NCBI RefSeq assembly: GCF_003367905.1
Contig: NZ_CP029462.1
Span: 124,001-188,000, forward strand
Source: Megasphaera stantonii
GTDB taxonomy: Bacteria; Bacillota; Negativicutes; Veillonellales; Megasphaeraceae
Direction of reading: 5' to 3'
DNA: 64,000 nucleotides
Of the stretch, positions 52,691 through 63,552 are shown piece after piece. The notes under the pieces are model-generated. The model was given only the letters and a program-made list of their open reading frames with translations, was not told the origin of the DNA and ran no database searches. The translations under genes were made by a program, and so were the position numbers. Every line of letters starts with the position of its first letter. Positions within the stretch are counted from its first letter, which is position 1.

Positions 52691-54339
52691 TTTCTAAACT
52701 GCCTATGCGGCAGATAACGGCAATCATTCGGCCGAGTTCTTCGTTTTGCTTTTCTAAACTGCCTATGCGGCAGATAACAACATGGCCGTATCCGCACAAG
52801 ACTTGTCGGCTTTCTAAACTGCCTATGCGGCAGATAACGTGATTTGGATTTTTTTGCTGCTGCCGTTGAATTTCTAAACTGCCTATGTGGCAGATAACCA
52901 TTTGGGCTACGACGGCGGTAATTTCCTAATTTTCTAAACTGCCTATGCGGCAGATAACGTCAAACAGCTTTGAATCGGTTAACTGCGCAATTTCTAAACT
53001 GCCTATGCGGCAGATAACGTTGTTGAAGTGTTGAAGCGTGCTGCGACTGATTTCTAAACTGCCTATGCGGCAGATAACGAAAAGCTGCGGCGGGCCGTGA
53101 CGGCGACAATTTTCTAAACTGCCTATGCGGCAGATAACGCTATGGTGATTGATTATGTTACCGGTGTACTTTTCTAAACTGCCTATGCGGCAGATAACAT
53201 TTGGGAAACTTCGGACGAATACAAAGATGTTTTCTAAACTGCCTATGCGGCAGATAACTTAGGATGGGATCAATCCCTTGAAGTCTTGTTTTTCTAAACT
53301 GCCTATGCGGCAGATAACCATATCGATGACATCTAGTTTTTTCGTCGTTCTTTCTAAACTGCCTATGCGGCAGATAACCATATCGATGACATCTAGTTTT
53401 TTCGTCGTTCTTTCTAAACTGCCTATGCGGCAGATAACTACTGATGGCGATAAAAAGGTAGACGGTCATTTTTCTAAACTGCCTATGCGGCAGATAACCA
53501 AAAGCCGCCAATCGTTACGCCGCCTTCACCTTTCTAAACTGCCTATGCGGCAGATAACGATGTCAAGCCGCTCCGCACATTGTCTACGACTTTCTAAACT
53601 GCCTATGCGGCAGATAACATCACAATGACGACGAGCTTAACCGGCGTTACTTTCTAAACTGCCTATGCGGCAGATAACGCATTAGCAAATGCCATCGTCC
53701 CCGGAAATACTTTCTAAACTGCCTATGCGGCAGATAACAAATCCGCCTTCGTAAATCCAATTTACACCTTTTTCTAAACTGCCTATGCGGCAGATAACAA
53801 ATCCGCCTTCGTAAATCCAATTTACACCTTTTTCTAAACTGCCTATGCGGCAGATAACTGTTCCCCGACGGCTTCGGCCATTTTTTCCCATTTCTAAACT
53901 GCCTATGCGGCAGATAACACATGGCATGTTTCCCTCTCCCTTTTCCATCATTTCTAAACTGCCTATGCGGCAGATAACGTCAAACAGCTTTGAATCGGTT
54001 GACAGCGAGATTTCTAAACTGCCTATGCGGCAGATAACAATTACACCCTTGTCCTCGTCAAACTCACCAATTTCTAAACTGCCTATGCGGCAGATAACTG
54101 CCGGTTGACGTCCCTTGCGGACGTTGTATATTTCTAAACTGCCTATGCGGCAGATAACAAAAAATAGTCAGCGGAAATTTAAAAAGAATTTTTTCTAAAC
54201 TGCCTATGCGGCAGATAACGCAAATGGCCCCTTGTCACCTCGATTAGTCAATTTCTAAACTGCCTATGCGGCAGATAACTTCGCACGTATTATGAACATG
54301 CTGAATCTGAATTTCTAAACTGCCTATGCGGCAGATAAC
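52691..54339 (-). CRISPR. Type I-F CRISPR array, 28 repeats / 27 spacers
   Basis: 28-nt repeats recur every 60 bp. The transcribed (minus) form starts GTTATCTGCC, has the 5-bp stem CTGCC/GGCAG with loop GCATA, and ends in the 8-nt handle TTTAGAAA. That is the Csy4/Cas6f substrate form. Spacers are 32 nt, with one of 33 (54159-54191). Repeats start at 52691 and every 60 bp to 54131, then at 54192, 54252 and 54312. One repeat (52871) has a loop change. Two spacers are exact tandem duplicates (53319/53379 and 53739/53799), and one pair shares 28 of 32 bases (52959/53979). The leader side is at 54340, next to csy4. Confidence 0.98.
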
Positions 54340-54471: not shown

Positions 54472-55047
54472 TTAAAATTCGGGTACTGCGGAATGAGGAC
54501 TCAATCCATAACTGCCAAAATGATTTTTCTCTCCTGGTTCAGCTTTCGTCCGTTTAATGAACAATCGGAATGGATTGTGGTTCGTCATGCTACACATCTG
54601 AATATACGGCAGCTGCGTCGCCCGATTCTTTGATTTCATAATCTGGAGAGCCTGTTCATAGGAAGTATCAGGATGGCGCTGGCTGTACCGTCTTGCTTTT
54701 TGATGGACGGAGCTGTCTGGCTGATATCGGCTGTACACAGCATAGCCTTTTATCTTTTTATATGGTATTTTCTTTATCTTTCCAATATCAGCATAATCAG
54801 CAAAACGCCGCAATACACCCTTTATATTCAACATTTCCAATAGGTGTTCATCTTCTGCCAAAATCCGCAGCTTAGTCCCTAATGAAGTTTCTCCATACTC
54901 TGGAAAAGATACGGCAATATTCGTAATTCCCTGCGTATTTTTTAGATCTGCCAAAGCAATATGAACTGCTGTAAATACTTTCCCCCAGAGAAAATTTACA
55001 GAAGAGCCTTCATCAGGAAGCAGCGTGATCTCCTGATAGTACTGCAT
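54472..55047 (-). CDS. cas6f: Cas6f / Csy4 crRNA-processing endoribonuclease
   Basis: Csy4 cuts the pre-crRNA at the 3' base of each repeat hairpin and stays bound to it as part of the surveillance complex. The 191-residue protein starts QYYQEITLLPDEG, has the catalytic His at residue 29 (VFTAVHIALADL, the same number as in the Pseudomonas enzyme) and the IAVSFPEYGETSLGTKLRI block. It ends with the FRLFIKR strand and SYGLSPHSAVPEF tail. It is the last of csy1-csy2-csy3-csy4, with the array following. Confidence 0.95.
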   Translation of the reverse strand: MQYYQEITLLPDEGSSVNFLWGKVFTAVHIALADLKNTQGITNIAVSFPEYGETSLGTKLRILAEDEHLLEMLNIKGVLRRFADYADIGKIKKIPYKKIKGYAVYSRYQPDSSVHQKARRYSQRHPDTSYEQALQIMKSKNRATQLPYIQMCSMTNHNPFRLFIKRTKAEPGEKNHFGSYGLSPHSAVPEF

Positions 55048-55051
55048 GATA

Positions 55052-56065
55052 TCATTCCTTTCCGCTTTGTCCGAAGACGCCGCCGCGCACTAATACGGCC
55101 ATGACATAGTGTTCGTCTTCCTCACATTCCAGCGCTTCTCCTACAGAGTATTTATCAAATAAGGTATAAAAATCCTTCTTGCTCGTGCCTGTCCGATAGG
55201 CTTTCCCCAAATTCGTAACGGCGCCGTACGGTTCTATCGCAATGGGACGCAGGACGTCGTCGTATTCCGGATACCACGTATCAATAGTCCTCAAGGCATT
55301 GCCTAACTTTTGAGAATGCATAGCCGCTGTATCGTTTACGGCGTATAAAATCTTGCTTTTTTCACTCTTCTTGTCGAGGACTAATTCTTCGCTCGGATAT
55401 ACTTCTTGTCCACGGCCCAGCAGCACATTGGCTTCGACATCAAGAAAAAGATACGGTTTAGTGCCGCACAAGGCGTCGGCAATGCAGTTTGCCAGAGCTA
55501 AGATATTGGCATCTTCATCGTCAAAATCGCGTAAGCTGTAGTCGTACGCATTAAATACCCATTGTGATTCCAGCTCTTTTGCCGTCACGATAATTTCTAT
55601 TTGCTCTGCGCCGACGCGATTTCTCCACAAAAACCGTCCGTTAGCAATATTGAAAGCATATCGTTTCGCTAATTCGGTAAAGCCGTAACGGTCTTTATAA
55701 GCTTGGATCATGCCGTTGATTTTCTGATAGTGTTCTTCATTATTACAGGCTGACGGCTGCTGCACCGGCAAAAATTTCAGTGTAAAACAAAGCTTTAACG
55801 TATCGCATTCCATAGATAAAGAAGCGCTGTCTACAGTTTGCAAATTTGCTTTTTCTACTTCTGCATTCAGTTTTGCCGGGTCATTTTTAACGGCGTTCTT
55901 CAGCCGATTGGAAATAGTGCCCCGCACCGATTTTTCTGCTAAGCGAATCGGAGTTTTTTCCGCCTTCCTCACATCCCACTGCGTTTCATACATATATCCG
56001 TCCGAAGGAACCATCCGCTTTTCAAAGGCCAATACAGACGCGATAACAGAATCTCTTTTTGCCAT
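55052..56065 (-). CDS. cas7f: Cas7f / Csy3 backbone protein
   Basis: Csy3 forms the six-subunit spine that holds the crRNA and flips out every sixth base. The 337-residue protein has the family-like start VLAFEKRMVPSDGYMYETQW, the FAFNIANGRFLWRN-like segment (YAFNIANGRFLWRNRVGAEQ) and TGTSKKDFYTL near the end. The ATG follows a strong AAAGGAGGAG site, in line with the high copy number needed. Four bases separate it from csy4. Confidence 0.95.
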   Translation of the reverse strand: MAKRDSVIASVLAFEKRMVPSDGYMYETQWDVRKAEKTPIRLAEKSVRGTISNRLKNAVKNDPAKLNAEVEKANLQTVDSASLSMECDTLKLCFTLKFLPVQQPSACNNEEHYQKINGMIQAYKDRYGFTELAKRYAFNIANGRFLWRNRVGAEQIEIIVTAKELESQWVFNAYDYSLRDFDDEDANILALANCIADALCGTKPYLFLDVEANVLLGRGQEVYPSEELVLDKKSEKSKILYAVNDTAAMHSQKLGNALRTIDTWYPEYDDVLRPIAIEPYGAVTNLGKAYRTGTSKKDFYTLFDKYSVGEALECEEDEHYVMAVLVRGGVFGQSGKE

Positions 56066-56080
56066 AACAAACTCCTCCTT

Positions 56081-56974
56081 TTACTGCAACTTCTGATTTC
56101 TGCAAATATATAGTCCCTGTTCTTCATCGTATTCATAGTGCCACATCATGTCGTCAATATCATCAAATTGATACGGCATCTTAAACTCGCCCAGCGTAAC
56201 GATATTTTCGGCAAAGCGATGCGGTTTTGTCATATCTCTCTGATGAGATACCTGCATCAGCGGCGATATCGCCTTAAATCCTACAGAAATGGGAATAATC
56301 CAGCCGGGTATTGCTCTTTCGTACGTCCAATCCGTACGATCCGATTCGGATGACGAATCGGCATGGCAATGAATCCTCAAAAACTTCAGCAATGTATCCA
56401 ACCCATCTTCGGAACCAGCGGCTTCCTGCTCCAGTATATCCCGCCGTTCAATCAGCACATATCCAGGCATCATCTTGGCAATAAGCGGCTTATACCCATA
56501 GTCTTTTTCCTCGTCAATATATACGATCTCTGCCTTACCGGCTTTGAGAATATCTCCAGAAGCGATTTTCATAGTTGGCAGCAGCATTGTGATCGCATGT
56601 TCACATCGCTCCTTATATTCCGGAAGAACCCGGCTCGTTTCGATTACCAAGGTTACAGTCACATGAACTCGTGCTTCGGCAATAAACGGCGGCCGTTCGT
56701 AGGCTCCGCCTTTCTTTTTCAGCGGATTGGCCGTCCCGATAATCGCGTTTCTGTACCCTTTTTGAACCTGTAAATTACAGGAATGGCAGACAACAGCCGT
56801 TTTAGAAAATGTAATATCTGAAAAAATGGGGTCCCATACCGATAGGTTCCGCTGCAGAGCATGCACAGCTCCCAGCCATGCTGTCATTGCCGGAAAGCCA
56901 ATGGTATAGGTGCTGCTCATCGCATTGGCATTGTGAATCTGCACATCAGGCAATACGATATACGTCTTCATCAT
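56081..56974 (-). CDS. cas5f: Cas5f / Csy2
   Basis: Csy2 pairs with Csy1 to form the tail of the Csy complex at the 5' handle of the crRNA. The protein of about 297 residues has the typical N-terminus YIVLPDVQIHNANAMSSTYT and the FPAMTAWLGAVHALQR block. GWIIPISVGFKAISPL lies in the last third. I chose ATG 56974, whose A-TG-A overlaps the csy1 stop; ATGs two codons up and one down are possible. Confidence 0.93.
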   Translation of the reverse strand: MMKTYIVLPDVQIHNANAMSSTYTIGFPAMTAWLGAVHALQRNLSVWDPIFSDITFSKTAVVCHSCNLQVQKGYRNAIIGTANPLKKKGGAYERPPFIAEARVHVTVTLVIETSRVLPEYKERCEHAITMLLPTMKIASGDILKAGKAEIVYIDEEKDYGYKPLIAKMMPGYVLIERRDILEQEAAGSEDGLDTLLKFLRIHCHADSSSESDRTDWTYERAIPGWIIPISVGFKAISPLMQVSHQRDMTKPHRFAENIVTLGEFKMPYQFDDIDDMMWHYEYDEEQGLYICRNQKLQ

Positions 56975-58128
56975 TCGCATCTCACCGCCTTATCCAGCTC
57001 ATCTCTGAACTTATGCTTAAAAAAGTGCATTTCTCCATCCCCTAAGGTGCAGCTTTCTTTCTTCAATATATATTCATAAGTACGTATTACCCAGCGTCCA
57101 AAATCAGCACTCAGCTCCTCACGCCATTCTTCTTCTTTCCGCTGCAGCGCATAATGAGGATCTAGCCAAATTTTCTGATGCTGCGGCAAGGACGCATAGG
57201 CTCCGTCGTCGCTCCATCCCTCACCCTCGCGGCGAAGGGCATAGGCCGTCATCATAGCCTGGGAAATAAGCTGATCTATATACGCTCTTACGGCGTCGCG
57301 GATTTGCTTATTATTCCTGTCCTCTTTAAACAGTACATGAAGTTCCTTAAATATGTACTTATAATTTCTAAATGAAAGGGATTCCCTAAAAAAATTCCTT
57401 TTAGGTTTCCGCACTTGCCGGCCAGACAGTACAGGCGGCAGCGAGGGCAGCAAGTACGCCGTTCCTCCGTTGGCGCTGTTTAAATAGCTGATATTCTGGG
57501 GTTTTGTCCCACCGAAGGAAATAGCCGTCAAATCCCAAAGTTCATCATAATCAGCACCAGCCTCACGGCACTGCTTCCGGTGTTCGTCTAATTGTTTAAC
57601 CTTTCCTTTCAGTTTCAGCAATACGCTGGAAGACGGCATGACCGTCAGCAAGTGATAGGCATTGCCCCCAATAGGAAAATATACTTGCTTAAGCAGTCCG
57701 TCGGTCGTATCGGGGAAGCTCGGCTGACTGCATTGCAGGATCCGTTCTTTAAAGATATGATACAATGCCTCGTCTAGGTGCAAAGCTTTAAATTCTTCTT
57801 CTACCAAAGAGCTTCCTGTTACTACATGAAAAAATACATTATGACCATCGTCCAAAAGTTTATCAAACAATAATTTAGCTGTCCCCATATACGCGGCGTT
57901 GACAGAAACATCTACATCATGAGCCGAATTCGACGTAGCAACATATCCTTTGCAAGGAGAATCAGACGTATCGTATAGGGTTACTTTAGCATCTGGATGG
58001 GAAAACTTTCCGACATGCGTAGCTATCTTGCAGAAGGGAATCTCATCTATCCGTTTTTGCATCCATTCCGTCACTGACAGCTTCTTGTTTTCTGCCTGTT
58101 CTTCTATGTACGTCTTAAGAATTCCCAT
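56971..58128 (-). CDS. cas8f: Cas8f / Csy1 large subunit
   Basis: Csy1 is the type I-F large subunit that reads the CC/GG PAM and starts R-loop opening. The protein of about 385 residues shows the family-like KVTLYDTSDSPCKGYVATSN, GGTKPQNISYLNSANGGTAYLLPSLPP-type region (given in part as GGTKPQNISYLNSANGG) and KRNFFRESLSFRNYKY. It heads the csy1-csy4 operon. I used ATG 58128, eight bases after GGAG. Its promoter at 58182-58210 overlaps the predicted target of the CreR-like RNA. Confidence 0.93.
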   Translation of the reverse strand: MGILKTYIEEQAENKKLSVTEWMQKRIDEIPFCKIATHVGKFSHPDAKVTLYDTSDSPCKGYVATSNSAHDVDVSVNAAYMGTAKLLFDKLLDDGHNVFFHVVTGSSLVEEEFKALHLDEALYHIFKERILQCSQPSFPDTTDGLLKQVYFPIGGNAYHLLTVMPSSSVLLKLKGKVKQLDEHRKQCREAGADYDELWDLTAISFGGTKPQNISYLNSANGGTAYLLPSLPPVLSGRQVRKPKRNFFRESLSFRNYKYIFKELHVLFKEDRNNKQIRDAVRAYIDQLISQAMMTAYALRREGEGWSDDGAYASLPQHQKIWLDPHYALQRKEEEWREELSADFGRWVIRTYEYILKKESCTLGDGEMHFFKHKFRDELDKAVRCE

Positions 58129-58158
58129 AATCATCACTCCGTTTCCATTGTATAATAT

Positions 58159-58178
58159 CCATTTTATTTTATTTTATA
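58159..58178 (+). promoter_or_regulatory. Predicted CreR target: CC PAM plus 18-nt protospacer at the csy1 start site
   Basis: CC at 58159-58160 is followed by ATTTTATTTTATTTTATA (58161-58178). Against the mini-spacer it matches at 15 of 18 positions, and the three mismatches are at 6, 12 and 18. The likely csy1 transcription start (about 58175) lies inside it. Confidence 0.75.
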
Positions 58179-58181
58179 AAT

Positions 58182-58210
58182 GTTATACTATAATTAGGGG
58201 AAAATGACAA
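58182..58210 (-). promoter_or_regulatory. Promoter of csy1-csy2-csy3-csy4
   Basis: TTGTCA (58205-58210) and TATAAC (58182-58187) are spaced 17 bp, about 55 bp before the csy1 start codon. The CreR-like target covers the start site just downstream of the -10. Confidence 0.75.
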
Positions 58211-58363
58211 CTATCTGAACATATACCCATTCCTAAAGAGTTGCTGTGACACGCCTTATATTGGTCAATCCAGCATGCTATTATCTCTCCCGTACAACTC
58301 TCTAACGAAAAAACGCCAACATCCAATTGAACCAGATAAAATGCAATTCCATATCCAAAAAAG

Positions 58364-58389
58364 AAAAAAGCCAGCCTGAATTAGCTGGC
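58364..58389 (-). terminator. Terminator of the CreR-like transcript
   Basis: GCCAGC pairs with GCTGGC (58370-58375 with 58384-58389) around an 8-nt loop, and six T follow on the minus strand. Confidence 0.7.
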
Positions 58390-58584
58390 AGAGAAAAAAG
58401 TTCATGCAAACAACAGCGGCACGTTCCGCACAAGTGCTCCGGACAGTGACAGAAAGTACATAGTTCCGGAAACACCATTTACAGCTGCTCACATCCATAG
58501 AACAAATAGCTCGTCAAACTGCCTTTGCGGCAGATACTCATAAATTAAAAAAAAATTTTCTAAACTGCTTATCCAGCAGATATT
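58364..58584 (-). ncRNA. creR: CreR-like cas-regulating RNA with two pseudo-repeats
   Basis: The RNA begins at a degenerate I-F repeat (pseudo-repeat 1, 58557-58584) with 23 of 28 bases conserved. Its stem CTGCT/AGCAG is held by a compensatory pair change and its handle TTTAGAAA is intact. An 18-nt mini-spacer (58539-58556) reads ATTTTTTTTTAATTTATG. Pseudo-repeat 2 (58511-58538) keeps the native CTGCC/GGCAG stem but has lost the handle. The RNA then runs to a terminator near 58364. Csy4 should cut it to an 8+18+20-nt crRNA-like guide. The guide fits the csy1 start region next to a CC PAM, which suggests autorepression. The symbol marks analogy with CreR RNAs. Confidence 0.75.
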
Positions 58585-58587
58585 CTC

Positions 58588-58616
58588 ATTATACCATGGA
58601 CATAAAAGCCTAACAA
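58588..58616 (-). promoter_or_regulatory. Promoter of the CreR-like RNA
   Basis: TTGTTA (58611-58616) and consensus TATAAT (58588-58593) are spaced 17 bp. The predicted start, about seven bases on, falls on the first bases of pseudo-repeat 1. Confidence 0.82.
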
Positions 58617-58705
58617 TGCCGAGATTGCTAGCGCTGCCACCGATAAAGGTAATCTTTTATACGTCTTTGCCGGTCTGAAATAGTTTCATGCCTATAACTC
58701 TGTTT

Positions 58706-61700
58706 TCATCTCATCTTTTTGAATATGCCGAATTGATCGTCATAAAACCATGTTTCATCGCCGCTATCAACGGGTAAAGTAATTTCTCCGTATTTGTTAG
58801 ATAGCGTCTCCAGCAGCTCTTCTTCCGGAAGGTCGTCGTCTTCTGGAATGCGGCGACAAAGCGCGTCTTCATATGTACGCGGCAGCCATATTCTTTCGGC
58901 CCCATATTCTATAGTATCTTGTTTAATATGCAGCGTATCTCCGCAGTCAATACATTCGCCGTCTTCATACATAGAAAAGTGAATCTTCCCGTCTCTATAT
59001 ACGCCTATAAGCTTCCTATCAGCCTGGCCCTCACGAAACCGGTTGAATGTCTGCGGCAGCGCCGTAAGCCACCAATACTCGTCAATCCAGCCGGACAGTC
59101 CCTGCGGCCCTGGCTCAGCACTGTTAAAATCTTCCATTGTCATATGTTCCAAGTCGATTAATAGGGAAACGTCTTTTTTATCGGTGCCATTCATGACAGG
59201 CTTTCGTATACGCAGTACGGCGTCGATTTTTTTATGAAAGGCTCCTTCATCTATAATATCATGCAGGTCGTGACTGCGGAGATGATACGGCTTGACTTCG
59301 TATCCCGGCTTTGTAAAGGCCTGCGGCTTACCCTGAAGAGCTTTTATATTGTACTGCATTACAGCAATATTCGGCTTTATAATATCCGCATACACCATGC
59401 GATGGCGCAGCACGCGCCCAGCCAGCTGAATAAAAGAACGATATGACGACGGCTCGACGACAGCCCAGTCAAAATCATGGTCCCGGCCAATTTCTTCTAC
59501 AGGCGTTGCGACGACGATAAACAAGACGTTATCTTCCTCAACGCTATCTAAATGGCGGCGAATCACCGGGTCTCGTATATCTATCGGAACGGAGCTGTCG
59601 TACTTTCGTTTCAAGACGGCGTCTAAATATTTTTCCTGCTCATGGCGCATAATCAGAAGTTGCCGACTATGGTAGGTCATAATCCGAATAGCATATCCTT
59701 TCGGCAGCATGCATTCGCTGCTCAGCAAATACGAGCTGCACGCCACGCAGGGATTGATATTAGCCAGGCGGATAAGGCCAAAGGATACGCGTTTTTTCGT
59801 CCTTTTATCAATAATGTAATTATCATCATGCAGGGCAACTGCCGCCTTCTTGGCCGCCTCAAAAAATCGGGTAATCCGGCTTCCCCCTTCCGGAGCCTCT
59901 GGGATGTCAACGATTATGCCTTTTCGTTTGATGACTTGCTTTTCCAAATGCTGTACCCGTTTATCGACAAAAGCGCCATGCATTGCTTCATAAGCCTGAA
60001 AGTCACCCATAGCAATCCGGCCTGCTACGGTCTTAAACTCATCGCACAAGACGACGCCGCACTTCTTTGCTTCGGTAAAAAACTGATTATAGCAGGCTAA
60101 GCCGCGCATATACGCCCGGAACATACCCTGAGCCAAATCAGGCGGTATCGTCGCCGAAGATATGGCTACGCTCCGTCCCATCATTCCGGCTAAATGAACT
60201 AATCGTGAAATGGCAATTAAATCTTTTTTATCAAAATCATCAATTTCATCGATGACCAAGTCGGACGACATGAGGCGCAGCAACGGAAGCATATATTTTC
60301 CGCCGCGTATGGTCTCTGTCGCAGCCATCATATAATCTATCGTCGCAGTCAAGACGGGCTTATACAAAAAGGCCTTATACTTTTGCGGGTTATGCTGGAA
60401 AAATATGTCTAAAAACGCCGTCTGTTCTGCATTGCATGTATCTTCATAGTCCAATTCCTCCTGCAGCAGGGCTTCTGTTTCTCCTACAGATGACATATCC
60501 TCTTCAGCCATTTTATCTTGTTCATGGAGCGACTGGATGACGCTGGAGCCAATCATAACGGCTAATTCGCTTTTATCCAGCCCGATTCGGGTCCTATACT
60601 CGTCTCCCGTCTGCAGCGTAAGAGTCCGCAATCCAAGAGCCAAGACGTAGCGAAGAGATTTTCCATCTTCTGATACAGCATTCATGAGCTTAGCATTGGC
60701 AATCGTTTTCCCGCATCCCGTACTCGCCATATTTACGATGAAATAGGCCATCTTCCCTCGTTCTCTCTGCCGGAATTGCTTGATTTTTTCAACAGCTCCA
60801 TCTTGCCAGCGGAAAGACCTGGGACTTTGCTTCTTCAGAAAGGCAATATCTTCTGCCTTTTCCATCCGGGCAGCAAAGTTCGGCAATTGATGAGCTATCT
60901 GCAAGGCCTGTTCCATAACGGAAACGACGTGCTCCTCCAAGGATTGTTTTAATCCTTTATTGCGATCCGTATTGGCCCATAACTCAACAGAGCTCCACGA
61001 ATGCTTCTTTTTATACGTTGCTTTTCCTGTATCTTCACAAGGCAGTGAAGAAATGTAATGGTCAGAGAGCATCAGGCACAATCGGGCATAGGTGACTATG
61101 CTGCGAAAGGCCAGATCTCCCTCCCGAATCAGCGTACACAAAACACTTTCTTCGCGAAGCATCCTGGCAGCCCATTTTTTCAAAGCTTTTTGCCAAAGGA
61201 GCCCGTCATCCCACAACAATCCTTGCTGAAAGGAAAAGCACTGTTTTTCTCTTTTCCCTTCTTCTTCATCACTTTGCTGTCTGCTGTATCCCCAGGAAGC
61301 ACGTATGCGCTCTATCATTTGCTGGAAGGAATACACGCCGTCGCTTTGGTACCCAGTTCTGTCATTCTCATCATCTATATATGGCAGCCGGTGATGAGAT
61401 AGGATAATCCACGCCAGCATACTAGCAATAGGCGGCATAGAGCCTAACGTCTCCATATTCTTGCCTGCCAGCTCAGCCAATGCTTTCGTATTAATTGTTC
61501 CTTCTGCCAAGGCAGTCAACCATTTCTTATCGTCATCATATGCGTCCGTATACCGCACTAAGGCTTCCAGCAATTTGCAGGATACCCATTCATGGCGAAA
61601 CGGATCGGCTTCCAGTTTTCCCTTTCCAGCTGTTTTTAACTTATGCTGAAACAAATCCGACGCCTTACCCCAGTCATGAAGCAGCGCTGCCAAGGCGGCA

Positions 61701-62044
61701 ATCGCTTTAATCAGGGACAAATACTGCCAATCGTTTTCCCATTCACTGTGCACGATATTTTTTGACGTATAATGCACTGGCACAATTCCTTCTTCATTAA
61801 ACTTGCTGCGCTTTCCTACGATCCATACCAGCTCGCTTCGGCTGCGAGAACGAATCCAATGACACGAAACAGCCGTACTCTTTGTCGCGCTGCGCCGCAA
61901 CAGTGTCCTAACCGTCGCAAGCCCCTCTTCCGTAATGACCGTTTTCCAGGTATCCGTGCCGATTCGCAGGGCAAAGCTGTCTAAAATCCTTCTGACAACA
62001 GGAATGGATTTTCCTTCGCTTTTACTGACAAAAATTACCATCAT
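58706..62044 (-). CDS. cas3f: Cas2-Cas3 fusion nuclease-helicase (type I-F)
   Basis: The fused protein joins spacer capture (Cas2) with target shredding (Cas3), a mark of type I-F. Of its 1112 residues, about 1-95 form the Cas2-like part (VRRILDSFALRIGTDTWKT, HWIRSRSRSELVWIVGK). The HD nuclease follows with LLHDWGKASDLFQHK (His123-Asp124) and SHHRLPY. The helicase has Walker A STGCGKT near 442, VIDEIDDFD, SSATIPPDL and the late RVLRH motif. The start overlaps the cas1 stop as ATGA. It ends 578 bp before csy1, and that gap holds the CreR-like RNA. Confidence 0.96.
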   Translation of the reverse strand: MMVIFVSKSEGKSIPVVRRILDSFALRIGTDTWKTVITEEGLATVRTLLRRSATKSTAVSCHWIRSRSRSELVWIVGKRSKFNEEGIVPVHYTSKNIVHSEWENDWQYLSLIKAIAALAALLHDWGKASDLFQHKLKTAGKGKLEADPFRHEWVSCKLLEALVRYTDAYDDDKKWLTALAEGTINTKALAELAGKNMETLGSMPPIASMLAWIILSHHRLPYIDDENDRTGYQSDGVYSFQQMIERIRASWGYSRQQSDEEEGKREKQCFSFQQGLLWDDGLLWQKALKKWAARMLREESVLCTLIREGDLAFRSIVTYARLCLMLSDHYISSLPCEDTGKATYKKKHSWSSVELWANTDRNKGLKQSLEEHVVSVMEQALQIAHQLPNFAARMEKAEDIAFLKKQSPRSFRWQDGAVEKIKQFRQRERGKMAYFIVNMASTGCGKTIANAKLMNAVSEDGKSLRYVLALGLRTLTLQTGDEYRTRIGLDKSELAVMIGSSVIQSLHEQDKMAEEDMSSVGETEALLQEELDYEDTCNAEQTAFLDIFFQHNPQKYKAFLYKPVLTATIDYMMAATETIRGGKYMLPLLRLMSSDLVIDEIDDFDKKDLIAISRLVHLAGMMGRSVAISSATIPPDLAQGMFRAYMRGLACYNQFFTEAKKCGVVLCDEFKTVAGRIAMGDFQAYEAMHGAFVDKRVQHLEKQVIKRKGIIVDIPEAPEGGSRITRFFEAAKKAAVALHDDNYIIDKRTKKRVSFGLIRLANINPCVACSSYLLSSECMLPKGYAIRIMTYHSRQLLIMRHEQEKYLDAVLKRKYDSSVPIDIRDPVIRRHLDSVEEDNVLFIVVATPVEEIGRDHDFDWAVVEPSSYRSFIQLAGRVLRHRMVYADIIKPNIAVMQYNIKALQGKPQAFTKPGYEVKPYHLRSHDLHDIIDEGAFHKKIDAVLRIRKPVMNGTDKKDVSLLIDLEHMTMEDFNSAEPGPQGLSGWIDEYWWLTALPQTFNRFREGQADRKLIGVYRDGKIHFSMYEDGECIDCGDTLHIKQDTIEYGAERIWLPRTYEDALCRRIPEDDDLPEEELLETLSNKYGEITLPVDSGDETWFYDDQFGIFKKMR

Positions 62045-63024
62045 ACGACATCACCCCCACTGCGGGCAAACATTGTGCTGCACTCCTTGACCTGAGAAAA
62101 CATAAAATCCAGCGCTTTGTGTTCTGTAAATTTCTGCAAGCAGACCTGCCTGAATTCCTGATCTGTCGTATTCCTTTCCGCACAAATAAAGGCCCAAGGC
62201 AGGACGATGGCATCCTTTATCAAATCGGCCACATCAAAAACCAGCGCGCCGCGCCGCGTTTTTCCATGCATGACAGCAAACCCATGAGGAATCCCCAATA
62301 CCCATAAGGTACAGGCCGCCAGCCCATAGGCCAGATAATTGCCATGGTTCAAAAAGACATTTGCTTTGTCATCGCCTTGCTGCCGTCTTGTAAATTCTCC
62401 CCAGTCCGATTGTTTGGCCGCATACTTGTAAAGCTTTTTCGTAAATGCAGCTTCTTTCGTAAGCAGTTCCGTCACGTTTCCCGCCTTGGGAATCTCTTTT
62501 TCATAAGTCTTTAACGCTTGTTTTATTTCCAAATCGTCACAATCAAACAGTTCATCCTGCAGTTCCCTGTCCTTACCCCAAACAGTACGTAAAAACTGGC
62601 ACCGTTCCTGTTGAAAGGCCTTAGCCGCCTCCAAGCGCTTCGCCTCGTCAAACCAAAAGGACAGCCATCCCTGCACATATACAGTCGGCCTGTATTCGCT
62701 CTGCGGATTCAGCCATTCTATTTCCGAACCGGCAAACAAAGGCGTACTGCCTCCTCCACAGAACCCAACCAGAACGCCGGCACTGGCCAATAACCGCATA
62801 GCCGCCTGCGTAATAGACGTACCTGTTCCCAATAAAATTACCGTCGTATTGGCAATCGGGATGTTCCAGTACAAATTTTCCTTTTCCGTCTCTGTCAAAT
62901 AGACAATACGGCCGTTCTTCTGCATGACACGGCATTTCTCCAGATAGAAGACATTGGCTCGCTTGGAATGAAGAATCGTTTTTAAATCGGAAGACGTTAG
63001 GTTCTGTTTCATAGGGCATCTCAT
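62041..63024 (-). CDS. cas1: Cas1 integrase (type I-F)
   Basis: Cas1 inserts new spacers into the array. The 327-residue protein starts with the type I-F-like SSDLKTILHSKRANVFYLEKC (in part) and RVMQKNGRIVYLTETEKEN. It has the NTTVILLGTGTSITQAAMRLLA block and the catalytic metal site region LNHGNYLAYGLAACTLWVLGI with GFAVMHGKTRRGALVFDVADL further on (both in part). It is the first gene of the cas1-cas2-3 unit. The array trailer of an I-C type lies 165 bp upstream. Confidence 0.95.
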   Translation of the reverse strand: MRCPMKQNLTSSDLKTILHSKRANVFYLEKCRVMQKNGRIVYLTETEKENLYWNIPIANTTVILLGTGTSITQAAMRLLASAGVLVGFCGGGSTPLFAGSEIEWLNPQSEYRPTVYVQGWLSFWFDEAKRLEAAKAFQQERCQFLRTVWGKDRELQDELFDCDDLEIKQALKTYEKEIPKAGNVTELLTKEAAFTKKLYKYAAKQSDWGEFTRRQQGDDKANVFLNHGNYLAYGLAACTLWVLGIPHGFAVMHGKTRRGALVFDVADLIKDAIVLPWAFICAERNTTDQEFRQVCLQKFTEHKALDFMFSQVKECSTMFARSGGDVV

Positions 63025-63090: not shown

Positions 63091-63189
63091 GAAGCCTCTC
63101 AATTACGAAACATGTTGCGGGGCTTCTTGACTGGTCAAAATGCTTGCAGAATTCATATTGAATAAACCTAGTATTGTCAGTGTTTAAAC

Positions 63190-63552
63190 ATTTCAATCCG
63201 CACTCCCGTACGAGAAGTGACGAAACCTGACAGCAGTCGTCATGCACAGCGCGACATTTCAATCCGCACTCTCGCACGAGAAGTGACTGTAACGGCCAAT
63301 CCGTTTGACAGCCCGCAGGAAATTTCAATCCGCACCCTCGCACGAGAAGTGACGGAACGTGGTATCCGCTTTCTGAAAGACGAAATCATTTCAATCCACA
63401 CCCTCACACGAGAAGTGACACGACGGCGACCGCATTGCACAGATTAAACTTGTATTTCAATCCACACCCTCGCACGAGAAGTGACGTAAATGAGTTTAGA
63501 TAGTCTGATGACGGGCTTCGATTTCAATCCACACCCTCGCACGAGAAGTGAC
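63190..63552 (-). CRISPR. Type I-C-like CRISPR array, 6 repeats, no I-C cas genes here
   Basis: Six 32-nt repeats start at 63190, 63256, 63322, 63388, 63454 and 63521, with five spacers of 34-35 nt. On the minus strand they begin GTCACTTCTCGTGCGAGG and end GTGGATTGAAAT, the type I-C pattern. The two right-hand repeats are identical. The others gain one to five changes toward the left, the usual decay at the trailer end, so the leader should lie at 63553 onward. It has no relation in sequence to the I-F array. Confidence 0.93.

Follow-up and report, generated by a model that had tools for sequence, protein, structure and literature searches.

A complete type I-F locus of Megasphaera stantonii was found to contain, in the 568-nt gap that separates cas2-3 from csy1, a CRISPR mini-array with two repeats (58584-58511, minus strand; positions are those of the window, the 64,000-nucleotide stretch of DNA that was analysed). 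Based on the match of its guide to the csy1 promoter and on comparable loci in related genomes, the Csy complex very probably binds the promoter of its own operon by means of this guide. The mini-array is highly likely to be a cas-regulating guide of the CreR kind, which would exert negative feedback on csy1-csy4.

The reading frames of cas1, cas2-3, csy1, csy2, csy3 and cas6f are all open, are located on the minus strand and were all matched by NCBIfam models. These are cas1 (62041..63024, TIGR03637), cas2-3 (58706..62044, TIGR02562), csy1 or cas8f (56971..58137, TIGR02564, E 1e-46, 159.4 bits, which is below the cut-off of 169.4), csy2 or cas5f (56081..56980, TIGR02565), csy3 or cas7f (55052..56065, TIGR02566) and csy4 or cas6f (54472..55047, TIGR02563), the last being the putative processor of the mini-array RNA. 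The likely start of csy1, chosen by eye from the N-termini of its relatives, is the ATG at 58128. The cas2-3 translation contains HDWGK, STGCGKT and DEID, which we take to be the HD and helicase motifs. The main I-F array (52691..54339, minus strand) possesses 28 repeats (GTTATCTGCCGCATAGGCAGTTTAGAAA), with spacers about 32 nt long, and includes two spacer-repeat units duplicated in tandem, at 53301-53420 and 53721-53840. None of its spacers showed a CC-flanked match to 58101-58760 with at most one mismatch in 15 positions other than multiples of six, and main-array spacers were rejected as extra regulators of the gap on this basis. A six-unit array with a different repeat, ATTTCAATCCACACCCTCGCACGAGAAGTGAC, adjoins the I-F cas1 gene at 63185-63552. 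Its repeats, presumably of I-C appearance, decay towards one end.

Both repeats of the mini-array, R1 (AATATCTGCTGGATAAGCAGTTTAGAAA, 58557..58584) and R2 (AGTATCTGCCGCAAAGGCAGTTTGACGA, 58511..58538), are degenerate copies of the main-array repeat and enclose the 18-nt guide ATTTTTTTTTAATTTATG (58539..58556), all on the minus strand. A short spacer enclosed by two repeat-like sequences in the vicinity of cas genes is a defining feature of CreRs. R1 differs from the main-array repeat core by three mismatches, its hairpin is preserved by a paired change (CTGCC/GGCAG to CTGCT/AGCAG), and its handle (TTTAGAAA) is the same as that of the main array, while the stem CTGCC/GGCAG of R2 is unchanged. The Rfam model CRISPR-DR4 gave 22.6 bits on R1, below the gathering score of 35. 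In the predicted fold of the mini-array (83 nt) the hairpins of R1 and R2 both form, with a stability that is unremarkable compared to shuffled sequences (z -1.37). An ordinary I-F array was rejected on account of the 18-nt guide and the degeneracy of both repeats, as compared to near-identical 28-nt repeats and spacers of about 32 nt. Racr, a solitary-repeat RNA anti-CRISPR of mobile elements, was likewise rejected, two repeats and a matched guide being present inside a chromosomal cas locus.

A putative promoter of the mini-array, TTGTTA-17-TATAAT with TG preceding the -10 hexamer, was located at 58588..58616 (minus strand), ending just before R1; transcription from it would start at approximately 58581, the 5' end of R1. 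As shuffled sequences yield about as many promoter-like sites as were found in this region (1.8 expected, two found), this promoter is weak evidence when taken alone. Terminator-like sites numbered two versus 0.4 expected from shuffles, and a hairpin with a T run resembling an intrinsic terminator is situated about 120 nt after R2 (58360..58389, minus strand).

The target of the guide, ATTTTATTTTATTTTATA (58161..58178), lies on the plus strand, opposite to csy1, overlaps the predicted csy1 transcription start and is preceded on its 5' side by CC, the I-F PAM (58159..58160, plus strand). The initial annotation had described a guide and site in agreement except at positions 6, 12 and 18, next to a 5' CC. 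Direct reading bears this out: mismatches occur only at these three positions and all 15 pairing positions match, so that a spacer partly complementary to a cas promoter stands beside the PAM of the subtype, as in CreRs. The site had also been placed at the predicted start of csy1-csy4, near a TATAAC box, and this was confirmed, the predicted promoter TTGTCA-17-TATAAC (58182..58210, minus strand, 10/12 hexamer match) ending at 58182, from which it follows that the target covers about +1 of csy1. This candidate is absent from a stricter promoter scan because its sixth base is not T.

In the genome (2.65 Mb, single contig), the pattern of CC plus the 15 bases outside multiples of six has one exact match, the csy1 promoter site. 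The only other match within two mismatches is the mini-array itself, with AA replacing CC, and 58161-58178 is the only CC-flanked match to the guide at this threshold; the reversed pattern, as a control, gave three hits with two or fewer mismatches. Guide and csy1 promoter are both T-rich and the match is of low complexity. Sixteen of 2,000 dinucleotide-shuffled guides equalled the local CC-flanked match (p about 0.008). Taken alone, the match in the window is suggestive and amounts to modest evidence; the comparative data are decisive.

A search throughout the class revealed csy1 in 36 of 380 genomes, and 37 csy1 loci from 35 of these 36 were examined (G253 was left out). Mini-arrays were sought in the 700 nt upstream of csy1 based on repeat hairpins and a CTTAGAAA-like handle only, the targets being unused. 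The hairpin rule, allowing one G-U pair, admits L018 and gives 14 loci (13 without that pair), while a guide limit of 28 nt removes L010 and L028, which have ordinary arrays with 32-nt spacers. On these terms 14 of the 37 csy1 loci, the window included, carry mini-arrays, with 12 different guides of 18-27 nt. By the same scan the other 23 loci have none, which argues that the mini-array is dispensable. Among the 13 mini-array relatives, the cas3-csy1 gap measures 618 nt in L022 and 186-273 nt in the 12 others; ten csy1 loci with gaps of 9 to 154 nt showed no mini-array. On a csy1 protein tree (n=30) parsimony requires seven gains or losses of the mini-array, at least three of them forced by well-supported branches. 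L028 and L031, sisters of L024, lack the mini-array and have an ordinary array with 32-nt spacers upstream of csy1. In L010 and L028, the ordinary array upstream of csy1 has no spacer that matches the csy1 upstream stretch of its own locus, and the two 32-nt spacers in L031 gave no match either. A wider scan of contigs covered 23 loci, of which only two, from Wohlfahrtiimonas, lay beyond the class genomes (sequence was compared for four pairs); neither of these two has a mini-array by the scan. In both (L055 and L056, at about 2250-2300) a single degenerate repeat hairpin, CTCTGCTGAAAAAGCAGCTTAGCGG, is present a short distance upstream of csy1, and a second repeat was not seen by eye; this is possibly a solo-repeat regulator.

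Sites for each guide were ranked by total mismatches over 17 nt on both strands, any two preceding bases being allowed. In all 14 mini-array loci the best site is unique, flanked by CC and upstream of csy1, with 0 to 3 mismatches in the best sites and 3 to 7 in the next-best ones. Relatives in which guide and promoter differ without keeping the match, named beforehand in the initial annotation as counter-evidence, were not encountered among these loci.

The Csy complex flips out every sixth base of the crRNA in the same manner as type I-E Cascade. In the latter, the Cas7 thumbs are described as flipping out the bases at 6, 12 and 18 (PMC5965380). Within positions 1-15 of the 14 loci, mismatches occupy 14 of 28 cells at positions 6 and 12 versus 1 of 182 elsewhere (Fisher p 2e-13, a value that overstates independence because the mini-array loci are related). 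When the 12 distinct guides were each counted once, the corresponding figures were 11/24 and 1/156. The remaining phases of the six-base period had 0, 0, 0, 0 and 1 mismatches. Beyond position 15, mismatches were found at position 16 in four loci, at 17 in one and at 18 in 12 of the 14, the last of which may simply reflect where the match ends. Since the mismatch rate at 6/12 (0.50) is below that expected from local base composition in the absence of constraint (0.68), tolerance of these mismatches is favoured over selection for them. There being no excess, selected mismatches were rejected, and it is improbable that the six-nucleotide pattern is itself selected as a means of keeping the short R-loop below the threshold of Cas2-3 licensing or self-directed primed acquisition. 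If true, selected mismatches at 6, 12 and 18 would represent a built-in safety code separating regulatory from immune guides.

When guides were compared to the gaps of other loci (13 loci, without L018), 152 of 156 pairings had at least three mismatches outside multiples of six; the other four belong to two pairs of sister loci. Covariation of guide and promoter in relatives had been proposed as a check at the outset. The sister loci L013, L015 and L021 show joint changes of guide and target at positions 7, 8, 9, 13, 14 and 15, and in one comparison at 12; one-sided changes within positions 1-15 are confined to 6 and 12, every guide change elsewhere in this stretch being mirrored in the target. 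L014, L018 and L023 have one guide in common, and the differences between their targets within positions 1-15 are limited to 6 and 12; L035 and L036 show a joint change at 7 and a one-sided difference only at 6. Conservation of the match by co-change, another mark of CreRs, was therefore observed between relatives, the window's own species lying outside the comparison. These natural guide-promoter pairs constitute a mutational record in which pairing is held at the non-flipped positions and relaxed at 6 and 12, evolutionary evidence which suggests that selection sees a DNA-bound Csy complex and not an RNA-RNA contact.

The target is on the csy1 strand in all 13 relatives; in the window it is on the opposite strand, downstream of the -10 hexamer. 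With relatives' promoters taken as the best-scoring hexamer pairs, without shuffle control, 10 of the 13 targets end 5 nt or less upstream of the predicted -35, those of L035 and L036 overlap the predicted -35, and that of L038 overlaps the predicted -10. Judging from the sequences, the guide-target pair of the window is an arrangement separate from that of the relatives, and direct support consequently comes from the shared rules (gap, PAM and periodicity) and not from a shared target.

Similar elements with another function had to be considered. In Acinetobacter the cas3-csy1 gap is described as holding a CreTA module with an I-F guide (PMC10097628), and the gap of the window is unusually long, exceeding that of all the mini-array relatives except L022. 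It is nevertheless very improbable that the mini-array is a CreA antitoxin guide which keeps a gene for a small toxic RNA or peptide repressed and matches csy1 only secondarily. A scan of 740 nt in and around the gap revealed no second target in it, the runner-up site having 6 mismatches in 17. Frames with both a Shine-Dalgarno sequence (SD) and an ATG number only two in the gap (minus strand, at 58276 and 58222), each of three codons, and both are upstream of the target as opposed to downstream in Acinetobacter. As for a toxin gene, the only frame downstream of the target in a scan that sees SD-led frames only is csy1 itself, and in each of the 13 relatives csy1 is the gene that follows the predicted promoter at the target.

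A decayed CRISPR remnant, the AT-rich guide of which matches an AT-rich promoter by chance, would agree with the T-richness noted above and with the rate of about 0.8 percent obtained from the shuffles alone. Chance of this kind is removed by the data from the relatives, as all 14 mini-arrays of the class match with CC and six-nucleotide periodic mismatches, the hairpins are kept by paired changes, the guides measure 18-27 nt versus 32 nt in the array, and related guides covary with their targets; a remnant is thus extremely unlikely. Finally, the Csy complex might act at the promoter in a manner other than simple repression, by assisting or tuning the polymerase, and in 10 of 13 relatives the target is placed just upstream of the predicted -35, a position at which activators also bind. 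In the window, L035, L036 and L038, however, the target overlaps the promoter or the start itself, which fits blocking better, and both CreRs (PMC13131331) and the Acinetobacter CreA (PMC10097628) are described as repressors in these sources. Such a non-repressive role is scarcely to be expected.

Repression of csy1-csy4 by its own complex would proceed as follows. The mini-array RNA would be cut by Csy4 into a short crRNA carrying the 18-nt guide, and the loaded Csy complex would recognize CC and the 15 pairing positions observed at the csy1 start, the flipped-out bases at 6, 12 and 18 needing no pairing. The R-loop would probably be too short to license Cas2-3, so that the complex would block RNA polymerase without cutting. 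The claim of the initial annotation that an 18-nt R-loop is insufficient for Cas2-3 agrees with in vitro data reported for another type I-F1 system, in which spacers shortened by 6, 12 or 18 nt formed R-loops and left Cas2/3 unlicensed (PMC7296934). With spacers of 14-26 nt the affinity of that complex drops with shortening, 14 nt being weak and 20 nt still binding (PMC7296934). By analogy with CreR systems, occupation of the complex by crRNAs or anti-CRISPRs would ease the negative feedback on csy1-csy4. The DNA of the mini-array would be spared because AA, not CC, precedes its guide. The U-tracts of the guide could count against mini-array function through folding or termination. Together with the 13 comparable loci of the class, this well-supported case suggests that effectors of type I-F control the operons that encode them.

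Self-regulation of this kind is already known, and the Megasphaera I-F mini-array adds a well-supported case. Type II-A Cas9 is autoregulated, the effector repressing its own promoter via a natural single-guide RNA that is short and non-cutting; to our knowledge that system differs in being class 2, with a tracrRNA-derived guide and no mini-array. Shmakov et al. 2023 reportedly described, for many type I systems, spacers with partial complementarity to cas8 promoters, and are said to have tested an I-F1 mini-array experimentally as a regulatory guide. That mini-array, of the same subtype, reportedly also possesses two repeat-like sequences, with a spacer between them that pairs in part with the cas8 promoter, whereas the counts of periodicity and covariation come from the present analysis.

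CreRs are known in types I-B, I-E and V-A (PMC13131331) and have been reviewed (PMC12737573). The mini-array resembles them in being a mini-CRISPR near cas genes with a short, partly matching guide, a PAM and a cas-promoter target, and it differs in belonging to type I-F and to the Negativicutes and in having single mismatches at the flipped positions. The initial annotation was correct in pointing to CreRs of other type I and type V systems, but the novelty is lower than it suggested, as I-F guides that repress a promoter have been published (PMC10097628). According to that source, the CreTA of Acinetobacter sp. WCHA45 has its I-F guide in the cas3-csy1 gap; the PAM is CC, positions 6, 11 and 18 are mismatched, and transcription is repressed about 7-fold in a Csy4-dependent manner. 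Pairs 10, 12, 19 and 20 of this guide could be broken without loss of function, and breaking pair 1 caused a partial loss, so that the tolerated positions in that system extend beyond multiples of six (PMC10097628). The likeness thus extends to the subtype, the gap, the degenerate repeats and the PAM, with a 20-nt guide in Acinetobacter; there the guide is described as repressing a toxin RNA, whereas in the window the csy1 promoter is matched and a toxin gene was not found. Among the titles listed by a literature search outside which most subscription journals lie, none was on a csy1-promoter mini-array in Megasphaera or Negativicutes.

Among viral contigs, no exact match was found to the guide of the window's mini-array behind an I-F repeat. 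Pairs of I-F repeats around guides of 14-21 nt were observed in several of them, including L098:7781-7950 and L148:1435-1505. In total 19 such guides are present in 16 of 80 listed loci, L098 having four consecutive 20-nt units. These may be phage-borne guides against host cas promoters; 16 of them (13 loci, without L111, L122 and L127) gave no CC-flanked match in their own stretch or in the csy1 upstream regions.

A solitary I-F repeat, CTGCCGCATAGGCAGCTTAGAAA, was noted within L062:1676-3457 (C1 of its own genome, 2131675-2133456), by eye downstream of an rpsD-like gene. Two small genes and a full-length Cas7c/Csd2 lie downstream of this repeat and an endolysin-like phage gene is close by; no other cas gene was seen within the 7 kb examined. 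This may be a prophage edge which carries an I-F RNA anti-CRISPR and a decoy Cas7 against the I-C system of the host, the cas8c gene of which is at 1377061-1379043. A Cas7 similar to this Cas7c/Csd2 was found in 4 of 50,697 phage records.
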